A stretch of 64,000 nucleotides of DNA. Source: an uncultured Marivita sp. GTDB taxonomy: Bacteria; Pseudomonadota; Alphaproteobacteria; Rhodobacterales; Rhodobacteraceae. The translations under genes were made by a program, and so were the position numbers. Location: positions 124,001 through 188,000 of the forward strand of contig NZ_CANKYW010000005.1 in assembly GCF_947488135.1 (NCBI RefSeq), given 5' to 3'. Within the stretch, counting starts at the first letter, position 1. Each line of letters opens with the position of its first letter. Below the pieces are notes generated by a model. It was not told the origin of the DNA. It made no database searches and was given only the letters and a program-made list of their open reading frames with translations. Positions 6,626-40,632 of this stretch are shown one piece after another.

Positions 6626-7552
6626 CTAAAGCACGCTTTCGCCGATGGGTGTGTTGCGGACTGAAACATTTGCCGACGCGGGCGCCTCAGCCCCGATCAC
6701 GAGCAGTTCCCGCGCGTCCATTTCGTCCGCAAACCAGGCCGACAGGGCCGCCGTATCGGTGACGGGTGTCTCCGGTCCGGCAACCGCGTCCAGCACGATC
6801 TTCGACGGGGCCCAGATGCAGACCTGTCCGTTTTTCATCGCCCAGTCGAGCTCGGTTCGGGTCGCGACCACCTTGCAGCGTCCGTCGCGCGCGGCGAGAA
6901 CCCAGCCATTCTGCTCGATCGCCAAGAGGTCGATCCGGCGCTGCGTCATGGCATGGCCGGTGACCGGGCGCGGGCCGTCAGGCAGGCCGACGCACAGGAT
7001 CAACGGAACGCGCTCCGCCTCGAGCTGATCGAGCCACGCGGCAAGGTGTTCCGACGCGATGGCCGCATTCGACAAGTACACGACGCGGGGATGAGGGCGC
7101 TCCTGGCTGCTGTCATGCGCGGCAACGTCCAGATCGGACCTCGACCGCACGATCTCTACGCCAAGCGCGCCGGGACCGCGATCCAGCTTCTCGATCCGAA
7201 CGAAGGCCCGCAGCGCCTGCGGTTCTTGCAGGATCCGCTCGGCGATTCGCTCGGCCAGCGTTTCCAGAAGGTTCAGGCGCTCCGCTCCAAGCTCGGCGGC
7301 GATGGCTTCGGTGACCCGGTCATAGGACAGGATGCGGTCAACGTCATCATCGATATGTCCAACGATTGGTTGCACTTCGACGACGACATTAAAGCAGATG
7401 CGCTGCGTCGTGCCACGTTCCGCCTGGAACGCGCCGATCTCGACATTGACGATATGATCGCGGAGCGAGATCCGATCCACCGGTCCGTCCTGGGCCGTGG
7501 CTATGGCGCGTTCTGACGGGTGCGCAAAAGCAAGTCGGATTTCAGAACTCAT
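6626..7552 (-). CDS. folB: Dihydroneopterin aldolase with C-terminal extension
   Basis: Residues of about 25-140 form a FolB/dihydroneopterin aldolase domain (ISLRDHIVNVEIGAFQAERG, then LLETLAERIAERIL), which makes 6-hydroxymethyl-dihydropterin for FolP. Canonical FolB proteins are about 120 residues; this one has 308. The extra C-terminal 160 residues contain VVYLSNAAIASEHLAAWLDQ and end in a short hydrophobic segment. I do not recognise that second domain, although the long form seems usual in this family of bacteria. The ATG at 7552 has a strong GGAGG 8 bp upstream, and folP begins 39 bp after the stop. Confidence 0.88.
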   Translation of the reverse strand: MSSEIRLAFAHPSERAIATAQDGPVDRISLRDHIVNVEIGAFQAERGTTQRICFNVVVEVQPIVGHIDDDVDRILSYDRVTEAIAAELGAERLNLLETLAERIAERILQEPQALRAFVRIEKLDRGPGALGVEIVRSRSDLDVAAHDSSQERPHPRVVYLSNAAIASEHLAAWLDQLEAERVPLILCVGLPDGPRPVTGHAMTQRRIDLLAIEQNGWVLAARDGRCKVVATRTELDWAMKNGQVCIWAPSKIVLDAVAGPETPVTDTAALSAWFADEMDARELLVIGAEAPASANVSVRNTPIGESVL

Positions 7553-7674: not shown

Positions 7675-8307
7675 TCAGCTGTTGCTGCTGACACGCCAGG
7701 TGTGGCGGTAGAACAGGTGCACACCGATGGACGCCGTCTTGGTGTAGGTGCGCGACCAGCGTGGGCGCACGGCGTTGGTGTGGTAATGCGTTGCCCCTTC
7801 GGTCAGGTTCATCGGCGCGCGACCGTCAAGAATGGCGCGGGCGACCTTGCCGACACGCTCCCAGGCGCGGGGTTCGCTGATCCGTTCCGGAATGCCGTCG
7901 CAGGTGTAGGTGAACTGGCACTGGTATTTCTTGCCGGTGCCCTGGTTGATCACGCCACAAATGCTGTTCGGAAAGCGGGCGCTCTTGACGCGGTTCATGA
8001 TGACTTCGGCGACCGCGAACTGGCCTTTGATGGTTTCGCCGCGCGCTTCGAAGTAGAGAGCCTCTGCCAGGCATTCCCACTGAGCGCCGCCGCTCGCCTT
8101 GTCCTGCGCGTTCAGCCAGGACGTATTGTAGATTGCGCCTTTGCGTGACGCGGGTGTGACAAGCGATGTCAGATGCGATTGGCCTGCTGCTGAAAGGCCG
8201 TTTTGTTCTTGGGTGACAAGAGCTTGAGCAGCGTCCTTCGAGCGTTCTGCGAAGGAGGGCGATGCCACGAGTGTGGCCGCCAGAATAAGTGCAAACAATC
8301 TCGACAT
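7675..8307 (-). CDS. Cell wall hydrolase, SleB/Hydrolase_2 family
   Basis: A 210-residue exported protein with signal peptide MSRLFALILAATLVASPSFA. From about residue 77 the Hydrolase_2 domain appears: CLAEALYFEARGE holds the predicted catalytic Glu, followed by AEVIMNRV, and a late HYHT and HLFYRH. Relatives include the spore cortex lytic enzyme SleB and non-spore peptidoglycan transglycosylases, so a role in periplasmic wall remodelling is the likely reading. It is a single gene; 122 bp separates it from folB. Confidence 0.85.
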   Translation of the reverse strand: MSRLFALILAATLVASPSFAERSKDAAQALVTQEQNGLSAAGQSHLTSLVTPASRKGAIYNTSWLNAQDKASGGAQWECLAEALYFEARGETIKGQFAVAEVIMNRVKSARFPNSICGVINQGTGKKYQCQFTYTCDGIPERISEPRAWERVGKVARAILDGRAPMNLTEGATHYHTNAVRPRWSRTYTKTASIGVHLFYRHTWRVSSNS

Positions 8308-36446: not shown

Positions 36447-36491
<45 letters not shown>

Positions 36492-36590
36492 AGTCAAGGC
36501 TGGTGATGCTTGGTTGTGTTGGAAGAAAGAAGTTACTAAACAACGGTTTGAGCGAATGTAGGGTTTGCTCTTCATGCCGACGAAATTCTC

Positions 36591-36610
36591 GCGTAAGCAT
36601 GGCGTAAGCA
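36591..36610 (+). repeat. Tandem GCGTAAGCA repeats left of tRNA-Arg
   Basis: Two direct copies of GCGTAAGCA (36591-36599 and 36602-36610) lie just before the intact tRNA. Two more copies, one inverted and one with A in place of G, lie after it. They may be arm-type integrase binding sites. Confidence 0.5.
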
Positions 36611-36625
36611 TCTCGCGAACGGTAT

Positions 36626-36702
<77 letters not shown>

Positions 36703-36752
36703 AAAAACACTATAAATCAATAACTTACACTTTCGCGCATTTGTGGACCTAG

Positions 36753-37667: not shown

Positions 37668-38783
37668 TTATAACCCCGCGGCCTTGGTCAGATTCACCCG
37701 GAACCGGTCACGGCGGCGCTGGTACCGGCGGGTCATCTCGGCTGAAGCGTGGCCGAGCTGCTTCTGGACGTAGCGTTCGTCGACCTCGGCCGAACTGGCG
37801 AGACCGGCCCGCAGCGAGTGGCCGGAAAACAGGGCGAGGCGGTCTTTCTCGGGGAGTTCCGAGCGAATGCCGGATTTCAACACGGTGGCCTTGATGAGAC
37901 GCGCAACGTGCTTGTCGTTCAGGCGAGCTTCCAGGGCTCTTTTGCCATCCCGTGAGGTGCGCACGAAGACCGGGCCGAAATCAATCTTTGCAAAGTGTAG
38001 CCATTGTTCAAGCGCATGGACCGGACAAGTCTGTTCTGAAGAGCCGCGTCCAATCTCGACCTCACGCCAGCCGGTCTTTGCATTCAGGGTCAGTACGACA
38101 CCATCCTTGAGGATCTCGATCCATCCGCCGCTCTCAAGTGTATCGTCTTTGTGCACATCTAGGCTGACGATCTCGCTTCGGCGCAACCCTCCGGCAAATC
38201 CCGTGAGCAGGATGGCCCGGTCGCGCAGCCCGCGCAGATCGAAACCCAGGGTGGCGACCATCGCGAGGATGTCTTCGGGCAGGATGGCTTCTTTCTGGAC
38301 CGGTCGACGCGCATGCTTGCGCTTGATCCCGGCCAGCACGGTGGCGATGTGCCGGTCCTTGCGGTCCAGCGCGAAACCGCGTTGCGCATAGTTCCAGGCA
38401 AGTCCGGATAGGCGACGATCTATGGTGCTCACCGAGAGGGCAGAGGATCCATTGGTCGGCGCAGCCAGGTCGGTCAGGTAGAGGCCAATCATCTCCGGCG
38501 AAGGGGGGAGGGGGTCTGTTCCCTTCAATCTGCACCAGCGGGCGAAGTTCTTCCAGTCGGTGGTGTAGGCTTTGTTGGTGTTCTCGGCCGTTGAGGCTTT
38601 GGCGTAGTCGCGTGCATTCTCAACCAACCGATCGAGCGTGCCGGACCCGGCGACGTGGGAGGGCAGGGCGATTGATCCGTCCGCTGGCTCTCTCTCGTCG
38701 TATCCGTCTTTGTTGCTCGCACCAGAGGACGCTAAGATCGATTTCTGGGCGTCTGGTAGCTGGTTTTCGGGCGTTTCGCTCAT
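37668..38783 (-). CDS. Tyrosine recombinase/integrase
   Basis: A 371-residue site-specific recombinase. An N-terminal SAM-like core-binding domain (TNKAYTTDWKNFARWCRLKG) is followed by the catalytic domain: Arg in GFAGGLRRSEIVSLDV, HSLRAGLA for the second His/Arg pair, LGHASAEMTRRYQRR with LGH and the Tyr nucleophile. All key residues appear intact. It resembles plasmid and island integrases of Alphaproteobacteria. A 9-7-9 inverted repeat 24 bp upstream of its start looks like a recombinase core site, and DUF1403-scpB lie divergently beyond it. Confidence 0.92.
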   Translation of the reverse strand: MSETPENQLPDAQKSILASSGASNKDGYDEREPADGSIALPSHVAGSGTLDRLVENARDYAKASTAENTNKAYTTDWKNFARWCRLKGTDPLPPSPEMIGLYLTDLAAPTNGSSALSVSTIDRRLSGLAWNYAQRGFALDRKDRHIATVLAGIKRKHARRPVQKEAILPEDILAMVATLGFDLRGLRDRAILLTGFAGGLRRSEIVSLDVHKDDTLESGGWIEILKDGVVLTLNAKTGWREVEIGRGSSEQTCPVHALEQWLHFAKIDFGPVFVRTSRDGKRALEARLNDKHVARLIKATVLKSGIRSELPEKDRLALFSGHSLRAGLASSAEVDERYVQKQLGHASAEMTRRYQRRRDRFRVNLTKAAGL

Positions 38784-38806
38784 GTTTTTGAGCCTATCTC
38801 ATTTGA

Positions 38807-38831
38807 GTCCGATAATGCAAACTTATTGGAC
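38807..38831. promoter_or_regulatory. 9-7-9 inverted repeat, candidate recombination core site
   Basis: GTCCGATAA (38807-38815) and TTATTGGAC (38823-38831) are inverted arms with one mismatch, separated by 7 bp (TGCAAAC). This geometry matches the core sites of tyrosine recombinases (dif, loxP-like). It lies in the 126-bp divergent gap between the integrase and DUF1403. It could instead be an operator. Confidence 0.55.
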
Positions 38832-38909
38832 ATGATGCAGACTCGCAGGGTGGGGCGGTTTGCACATCATATTGTGGACGAAAGCGCCGCGAGAGACTAG
38901 TGTTGTGGC

Positions 38910-39863
38910 ATGACCTATCAGCCGACTGCCATCTCGAACAACCTGGGCAAGCTACCGCGGCTGCCGGGCTGGGTCACCTCCGGACGTGTGGAAACCTTCG
39001 AGGCTGTGGCCTTTCGGTCCGGGGCGGCGCTGAGCGTGCTCGATCAGCTTGTCTCTGATCCCAAGCATGGCGTGCCGCTGAAGCTCCTGGCAAACCGGCT
39101 GGCCCTGAGCGCGGCGACCGCGACCTCGAAACTGGAAGGACGGTTGGCGCGTGAGGCGGATATTCGCGACGCCTATCACCTGACGCTGCCGGGCGAGGCG
39201 CGGGGGCCGGATGGCGATCTGCTTGCCTTTTGGCGAGGGGGCGCATGCCAGCGGTCAGATGGGATAGGTGAGATCGCCGACCTCGTCGGTGCCGACTTCG
39301 CGCGCGACGTGGGCGTTTGGCTGGACGTGGGGTTGGAGGGCGCGCGAACCCACGGGCCATTGGCCGGCTGCGTTTGCGTCCTTCGCGCGGTGCTCGAGAC
39401 CGACGACCGGGCGGAACGGGTCGCCTGCCTGCTCTCGGACATCGTTCTGGCGCGGGCGCTGAACTGGAAGCAGGTGCTGCCCGTTACCGCGCAGCGGCTG
39501 ACAAAGGCGGACCTGCGCGACCTGACCGCAGAAGGGCAGGGGGCCGAGTTGGCAGTCGAGATGCAGATCCTCGAGTCCATCGAGGCCACCGTTCGACTGG
39601 CGCGAGACGTCGCCCGCCGCGCCGACGCGCTACGTTCCGTGGCGCCGAAGCTGCGCGCGAAAGGATCGGAGGCTGCGGTCGACCTGTTCCTGACCGAGGA
39701 TGCCGTGGCGCCGGCGTCGATGCTGTCGCCGCGCATCAGGGGCACCTCGATCCCCATGACCTCGCGCGCCGCGCGGCGGTTCTGCGACCGGTTGGTTGAA
39801 CTCGGCGTGGCCCAAGAACTCACTGGGCGACCGACCTTCCGACTCTACGGGATCGCACCATGA
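38910..39863 (+). CDS. DUF1403 family protein
   Basis: A 317-residue protein matching DUF1403, a family known mainly from alphaproteobacterial plasmids and islands. Recognisable stretches are LPGWVTSGRVETFEAVAFRS, GAALSVLDQLVSDP and the C-terminal SPRIRGTSIPMTSRAARRFC, then DRLVELG, which reads like a helix-turn-helix. No catalytic motif is apparent. Its stop overlaps the scpB-like start by ATGA (39860-39863), so the two proteins probably work together. Confidence 0.85.
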   Translation: MTYQPTAISNNLGKLPRLPGWVTSGRVETFEAVAFRSGAALSVLDQLVSDPKHGVPLKLLANRLALSAATATSKLEGRLAREADIRDAYHLTLPGEARGPDGDLLAFWRGGACQRSDGIGEIADLVGADFARDVGVWLDVGLEGARTHGPLAGCVCVLRAVLETDDRAERVACLLSDIVLARALNWKQVLPVTAQRLTKADLRDLTAEGQGAELAVEMQILESIEATVRLARDVARRADALRSVAPKLRAKGSEAAVDLFLTEDAVAPASMLSPRIRGTSIPMTSRAARRFCDRLVELGVAQELTGRPTFRLYGIAP

Positions 39864-40459
39864 ATGTCGCGACCAGGAAACGGAAACCGGCGGAGGAGGG
39901 CAGTGCCGCCTTTGACCGTGAGCTGGACGATCTGCCACAGGAACTCCGCTGGCGGGAATGGATGGGGCGGATCGAGGCGGTGCTCTTCGCCAGCGCGTCA
40001 CCGGTCGGCCGCGACGACCTGGCGCGCGTGGTGGGGCAGGGGGCCTCGGTCGAGATGCTGATCGAGGACATCCAGGCCGAGCTGGTCGGCCGCCCCTACG
40101 AATTGGTTCAAGTCGCCGGCGGTTGGATGTTTCGGACGAAAACGCAGTTCGCCGATGCCATCAAGGCCGCTGCCGATCCCGGCGACCCGTCGCTCGGCTT
40201 CACCGAGATCGAGATGGGGGTGCTCTGCGCCATCGCCTATCACCAGCCGATCGACCGGGCCGGGCTGAAGGACATCTTCGGTAAGGAGGTCAGCCGCGAT
40301 CTGCTGGCCCGGCTGCGCTACAAGGACCTGATCGCCAGCGGGCCGCGGTCGCCGCGGCCTGGGGCGCCGCATACCTTCGTGACGACGGACACGTTCCTCG
40401 TGACCTTCGATCTGCAGAGCCTGCGGGACTTGCCGGAGCTGGATGTGTCGAAGCCGTGA
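39860..40459 (+). CDS. ScpB-like SMC-Scp complex subunit
   Basis: A 199-residue double winged-helix protein of the ScpB type: WMGRIEAVLFASASPVGRDD, YELVQVAGGWMFRTKTQFAD, TEIEMGVLCAIAYHQPIDRA and LLARLRYKDLIASGPR are typical. ScpB binds the kleisin ScpA and regulates the SMC condensin. This copy travels with DUF1403 and an integrase rather than scpA, so it is an accessory paralogue, possibly acting in element or replicon maintenance. The C-terminus ends DVSKP. Confidence 0.87.
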   Translation: MNVATRKRKPAEEGSAAFDRELDDLPQELRWREWMGRIEAVLFASASPVGRDDLARVVGQGASVEMLIEDIQAELVGRPYELVQVAGGWMFRTKTQFADAIKAAADPGDPSLGFTEIEMGVLCAIAYHQPIDRAGLKDIFGKEVSRDLLARLRYKDLIASGPRSPRPGAPHTFVTTDTFLVTFDLQSLRDLPELDVSKP

Positions 40460-40632
40460 TGTCCGAATTATGCGGCGCTCTTCGAGAGGGTGCCGGCCAC
40501 TGTCATACCAGCGCGGCGTCAGAAAGCTCTTCCGGTTGCTCGGCCAAGCGATGCGGACCATTCGCGATCGGATCCTCGGGGACCATGATCGCCGAGACGT
40601 TGAACGCGCTCGTTTGCTGCGCGGGCCGTTTC
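40460..40632 (-). pseudogene. TRAP dctP-like remnant
   Basis: On the minus strand 40604 to about 40510 reads AFNVSAIMVPEDPIANGPHR, then LAEQPEELSDAALV and a stop. This matches the N-terminus of TRAP substrate-binding proteins, and is close to the intact copy at 63843, which has IMVAEDPIAQ in the same place with a near-identical stretch of DNA. There is no start or signal peptide, and the rest is lost. It directly follows the AroQ-like gene in the same orientation, so that operon may once have continued into a TRAP gene. Confidence 0.55.

Follow-up and report, generated by a model that had tools for sequence, protein, structure and literature searches.

A tyrosine recombinase, its palindromic site and a DUF1403-ScpB pair as a candidate resolution and exchange module of alphaproteobacterial plasmids

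In Cre/loxP of the phage-plasmid P1, a single tyrosine recombinase encoded on the plasmid acts on a palindromic site close by, present once per replicon. The arms of loxP are 13 bp long and flank a spacer of 8 bp, and P1 is not known to have a DUF1403-ScpB partner. In XerCD/dif and the plasmid cer/psi systems, a host-encoded recombinase pair works with FtsK or accessory proteins in dimer and multimer resolution. IntA of R. etli CFN42 recombines 23-bp sites, which consist of the arms TCCGATAA and TTATCGGA and a 7-bp centre. The recombination of attA works in both directions in vivo, and attA with attD gives a cointegrate of p42a and the symbiotic plasmid (PMC4928290).

The locus described here was found in the window, i.e., the whole stretch of 64,000 nucleotides of an uncultured Marivita sp. 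that was analysed. Its features are as follows.

37668-38783, minus strand: tyrosine recombinase, 371 aa (Pfam PF00589 Phage_integrase, E 2e-13; catalytic R201, K236, H322, R325, H345, Y354)
38807-38831, no strand: putative recombination (att-type) site with arms GTCCGATAA and TTATTGGAC and a 7-bp asymmetric centre, TGCAAAC (assigned by comparison)
38854-38888, no strand: second conserved palindromic element, GGCGGTT-N21-AAGCGCC, likely the DUF1403-scpB operator (assigned by conservation)
38910-39863, plus strand: DUF1403 protein, 317 aa, with a predicted degenerate Fic fold and an HTH-like C-terminus (PF07183, E 7e-91)
39860-40459, plus strand: plasmid-type ScpB paralogue, 199 aa, translationally coupled to DUF1403 (PF04079, E 4e-32)

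The first-pass annotation had described an inverted repeat in the 126-bp gap between integrase and DUF1403, the coupling of DUF1403 and scpB by ATGA, and the lack of scpA. The repeat was confirmed as GTCCGATAA-TGCAAAC-TTATTGGAC, and the DUF1403 stop and the scpB start do overlap in ATGA. No scpA lies near the triad of integrase, DUF1403 and ScpB; the single ScpA of the genome adjoins the housekeeping ScpB on another contig.

The catalytic set of tyrosine recombinases, R-K-H-R-H/W-Y, is complete in the window protein, and the six residues were kept in 60-62 of 62 homologues. The best relatives of solved structure were Cre recombinase (E 6e-4). As in Cre/loxP, a recombinase carried on the plasmid is paired with a single site per replicon, close to rep/par genes, the window's own copy being chromosomal, but the similarity of the window recombinase to Cre is weak. 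The protein scored far below the XerC/D cut-offs. The palindromic core is similar in size to those of XerCD/dif and cer/psi, which have a 6-8 bp centre, whereas the window system has one recombinase encoded beside its site. A report of vesicle-DNA enrichment in D. shibae was set aside, as it concerned chromosomal dif only.

IntA is also a tyrosine recombinase beside its own site on a repABC plasmid, and its site also has a 7-bp centre. However, it shares 29% identity with the window recombinase; because of this, the window system is regarded as related to IntA and using the same kind of site, not as its orthologue. The known activity of IntA is cointegration rather than dimer resolution. IntA-type and triad-type integrases were found as separate genes side by side on two rhizobial plasmids. 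In L124 (5904-8547) and L128 (4722-8510), an IntA orthologue lies near the triad integrase, with one clear site only.

The attA and attD sites were located on p42a and p42d at the coordinates expected from the published primers (PMC4928290), and no DUF1403 was found near either site. The window site, TCCGATAA-TGCAAAC-TTATTGGA, and attA, TCCGATAA-GCATTAC-TTATCGGA, differ in one arm base, and the arms of the window site match each other at 8 of 9 positions. It is the sole site in the window at up to 3 mismatches, with 0.03 matches expected in shuffles. Three contigs of the Marivita genome carry one triad each; the 25-bp site is identical in all three and was found nowhere else in the genome. Across Rhodobacteraceae and in rhizobial plasmids, the site recurred before DUF1403-scpB, so the repeat proposed in the first-pass annotation is present in other triads. 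Its conservation between the divergent arms was far above chance in 52 non-redundant loci, with a mean of 1.84 bits per position in the site, whereas the 40 nt on its left had 0.54. In 56 of 65 loci, 80 nt separate the end of the site from the DUF1403 start, and the distance from site to integrase varies.

In 298 genomes drawn evenly from Rhodobacteraceae, 56 perfect sites were found in 42 genomes, on 56 different contigs. DUF1403 over the cut-off was also present in 41 of these 42 genomes, and 13 genomes had at least two sites, never sharing a contig. Fifty of the 56 sites were placed 60-200 nt upstream of DUF1403. Of the six others, one belongs to a triad that an insertion has split, one has an integrase but no DUF1403, and one goes with an integrase remnant; in the rest, neither gene was in the stretch read or the stretch was not read. 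One clear site was present on almost all of the 23 plasmid records with a triad; one Yoonia record (one strain) has two sites in opposite orientation. No directly repeated site pair was found on any one plasmid or contig among those examined. One Marinovum site has a shortened centre, and in L056 (7898-7922) the centre is reversed relative to DUF1403, i.e., GTTTGCC, not GGCAAAC.

Two other assignments of the site were ruled out. Integron-like capture is contradicted by one site per replicon and the lack of an array. As the end of an integrated element, the site would not fit either, since the genome has no copy of it outside the triads, and the flanks of the window triad share no direct repeat of more than 12 bp.

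Among 51 loci with an intact integrase, 50 had a site with no more than one mismatch, whereas only 3 of the 17 loci whose integrase is broken or lost had a perfect one. As far as the compared loci tell, the site stays intact alongside an intact integrase and decays where the integrase is lost. The second palindrome, which the first-pass annotation does not mention, begins approximately 57 nt ahead of the DUF1403 start codon in almost every locus. Perfect copies were seen in 47 of the 51 loci whose integrase is intact and in 14 of the 17 others. The element was rejected as a part of the recombination site because it outlasts the loss of integrase and site. For the same reason an operator is more plausible, and the element is likely the operator of the DUF1403-scpB operon.

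The first palindrome, being palindromic and placed between divergent genes, could also be a mere operator of divergent promoters, with the mosaic plasmids described below arising by ordinary homologous recombination. This is very improbable, because the centre is conserved and asymmetric, the arms are near-identical to those of a proven att site, and the position relative to DUF1403 is kept despite insertions that separate the site from the integrase gene. Moreover, it decays after integrase loss while the neighbouring palindrome stays, and the blocks of identity between plasmids begin within approximately 20 bp of it. On comparative evidence, a Cre/IntA-like recombinase uses the palindrome as its crossover site.

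Few Alphaproteobacteria carry DUF1403, which was found in 3 of 289 genomes of the class. From genome contigs, 73 DUF1403 loci were taken. The three genes, whose rarity in combination would have spoken against the first-pass annotation, occur together in most loci with enough flank, the integrase being divergent from DUF1403 and ScpB and the site lying between them. This order is seen from Rhodobacterales to Rhizobiaceae. Of the genome-contig loci with an intact integrase, 40 of 44 had repA or repC no more than 7 kb upstream, compared with 3 of the 14 remaining loci. On the 23 plasmid records, rep or par genes were near most triads, and a few records had no rep gene annotated in the stretch shown. 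Triads near repABC or other rep/par genes were found on plasmids of Roseovarius, Roseobacter, Paracoccus, Salipiger, Marinovum, Sulfitobacter, Mameliella, Actibacterium, Agrobacterium, Mesorhizobium, Sinorhizobium, and Bradyrhizobium. Judged by these neighbourhoods, the integrase-site-DUF1403-ScpB unit is a backbone module of large, mostly repABC, alphaproteobacterial plasmids, agrobacterial and rhizobial plasmids included. It is widely conserved and apparently undescribed; in open-licence papers, most subscription journals being outside this scope, no literature on DUF1403 or ScpB with repABC was found.

The reading that we favour, with somewhat more belief than doubt, is a replicon-borne Cre/lox-like plasmid resolution module, which also drives plasmid fusion and backbone exchange. 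The recombinase would bind both arms of the site and exchange strands inside the 7-bp centre. This chemistry is proposed from the intact catalytic residues and the IntA precedent, and the site itself was recognised by comparison. Two sites on one dimeric or multimeric plasmid would be resolved into monomers, which may help the partition of a low-copy replicon, and we infer that dimer/multimer resolution is the main role. Two plasmids in one cell could form cointegrates via the site. Later resolution of the cointegrate, or deletion, would swap the rep-int half with the DUF1403-scpB-cargo half, and such products were seen. It is probable that the module keeps plasmids in the monomeric state and allows them to fuse and to exchange backbones as well. 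The idea of a recombinase with its own site in replicon maintenance is well supported at the sequence level by the repABC linkage, one site per replicon, arms near those of the IntA att sites and natural crossovers at the site. The chromosomal window copy without RepC, the 29% identity to IntA, and the two-site record count against a resolution module. The module offers a testable site and a candidate Cre-like tool.

Natural crossovers were found by comparison of plasmids. Two co-resident plasmids of Sulfitobacter alexandrii, unnamed4 and unnamed5, share 99.986% identity over 7109 bp. The identity block starts 1 bp before the site and runs right to the end of the compared stretch, while to the left the plasmids have different replication genes and integrases only approximately 84% similar. 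From position 7002 rightwards, these records (L158 and L159) carry near-identical DUF1403, ScpB, AbiE-like genes, and TniABQ. Three other loci (L050, L052, and L053) showed 99.9% identity over 4 kb rightwards and diverged approximately 15-20 bp left of the site, and L019 and L074 showed the same pattern. Correlations of protein distances were 0.86 for DUF1403-ScpB, 0.63 for integrase-ScpB, 0.46 for integrase-DUF1403, 0.10 for integrase-RepC, and -0.03 for RepC-DUF1403, which agrees with breakpoints at the site. From these alignments, natural breakpoints fall on the site, and the chimaeric co-resident plasmids with their junction at the site indicate recombination between sites on different replicons. 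Replicon fusion and mosaic backbones, both reported in alphaproteobacterial genomes, would have a concrete mechanism in this module.

The same chimaeras could come from fusion followed by loss. The recombinase and site might mainly fuse replicons, i.e., by cointegration, conduction of non-transmissible plasmids, or integration, with resolution secondary, as in IntA, whose attA and attD join p42a to the symbiotic plasmid (PMC4928290). The three identical sites on three contigs of the Marivita genome and the chromosomal window copy are in line with this. However, a stable cointegrate would keep two directly repeated sites, a pair not found on any plasmid or contig examined. A maintenance role also better explains why the module is consistently placed next to rep genes and why site and integrase decay at a distance from them, and fusion as the main function is considered unlikely.

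The DUF1403 protein was modelled with confidence by AlphaFold2 (pLDDT 84, pTM 0.85). In Foldseek, the best solved matches of the model were SoFic-type Fic proteins with a probability of 1.00, at modest TM-scores (0.52-0.56) and modest E-values. The predicted fold is similar to Fic AMPylase, but the catalytic motif HxFx[DE]GNGR was absent in 49 of 49 DUF1403 sequences. A weak HTH_13 match was found at the C-terminus in all 49 homologues. DUF1403 gave no match in a sequence search against solved structures, and a viral structure library gave none either. DUF1403 as a disguised ScpA was ruled out, as it has no sequence match to solved structures and the fold search led to Fic proteins. With its Fic-like fold and HTH-like C-terminus, the predicted protein does not look like a kleisin.

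The third gene of the triad encodes a true ScpB homologue, as in chromosomal ScpAB of the SMC condensin. However, the window protein is under the NCBI cut-off of the ScpB equivalog model, no ScpA partner gene accompanies it, and its operon partner is DUF1403. Grouping with housekeeping ScpB, which would have weakened the first-pass annotation, was not observed: the triad ScpBs formed one separate clade with a support of 1.0, and their identity to housekeeping ScpBs was 30% on average and 35% at maximum. A plasmid-borne ScpB without ScpA could widen the known roles of SMC-accessory proteins.

In approximately ten loci, DUF1403-scpB was kept without integrase. Because the pair persists in copies without the recombinase, its coupling to the recombinase is loose, and recombination is no obligate companion of the pair. 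The condensin loading suggested in the first-pass annotation found no direct backing in the analysis. The two parts may even be independent neighbours that merely share a backbone, i.e., a recombinase and site that resolve plasmids, beside a distinct DUF1403-scpB operon that has an operator of its own and a partition, condensin-related, or regulatory role. The survival of the pair with the second palindrome after integrase and site decay (14/17), and the weaker distance correlation of integrase with DUF1403 than of DUF1403 with ScpB, speak for this. We hold it rather unlikely, as the 80-nt spacing of site and DUF1403 is fixed while the integrase distance varies, 50 of 56 sites lie directly upstream of DUF1403, and hosts from Rhodobacterales to Rhizobiaceae keep the same gene order.

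Within the favoured resolution module, DUF1403 would most likely bind the second palindrome and may control its own operon, and together with the ScpB paralogue it might serve as an accessory or partition factor. A more specific proposal, which we consider doubtful, is that DUF1403, as a pseudo-Fic DNA-binding protein, and the dedicated plasmid ScpB would assemble at the site as an accessory complex, condensin-related or topological, and couple the crossover to plasmid segregation or make it resolution-selective. If this were true, a recombination system would be steered by an SMC-accessory protein.

In the Marivita genome, repC lies a few kb from the triad on two of the three triad contigs, and no RepC was found on the 325-kb contig of the window. 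The window triad is surrounded by chromosomal-looking genes; its own genes are intact and its site is perfect. A tRNA-Arg (ccg) is located at 36626-36702, 1 kb from the triad. A partial duplicate of this tRNA, 30 identical bases at 36462-36491, lies approximately 180 bp upstream of it, and after this tRNA-Arg region (36450-36710) a stretch of 49% GC follows, up to the integrase. The duplicate and the low-GC stretch are taken as a sign of earlier integrations at the tRNA. Given these surroundings, the window copy reads as a plasmid module moved to a tRNA-linked hot spot, i.e., it is probably displaced and now chromosomal.

Transposons of the TniA-TniB-TniQ type (Tn5053-like) were inserted between integrase and site in eight loci (L008, L018, L020, L048, L067, L069, L115, and L127). 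Where TniQ was recognised beside the site, it ends approximately 150 nt before DUF1403. Related Tn5053-type elements prefer res sites with their resolvases (PMC7765201). By analogy, the Tni transposons could be hunters of the tyrosine-recombinase site; the parallel is suggestive only, since recombination at the site could itself spread one insertion. In the plasmids L164-L167, the Tni unit ends right at the scpB 3' end. Cargo on the scpB side is often defence-like, i.e., CBASS, AbiE-like, HEPN, and PIN genes (L111, L115, L158, and L159). Another inverted repeat, TGTCCGAA-N13-TTCGGACA, was observed just past the scpB stop in L005 (approximately 8220-8255). It is similar in L014, L032, L035, L043, L049, and L066, and degenerate in the window near 40460.
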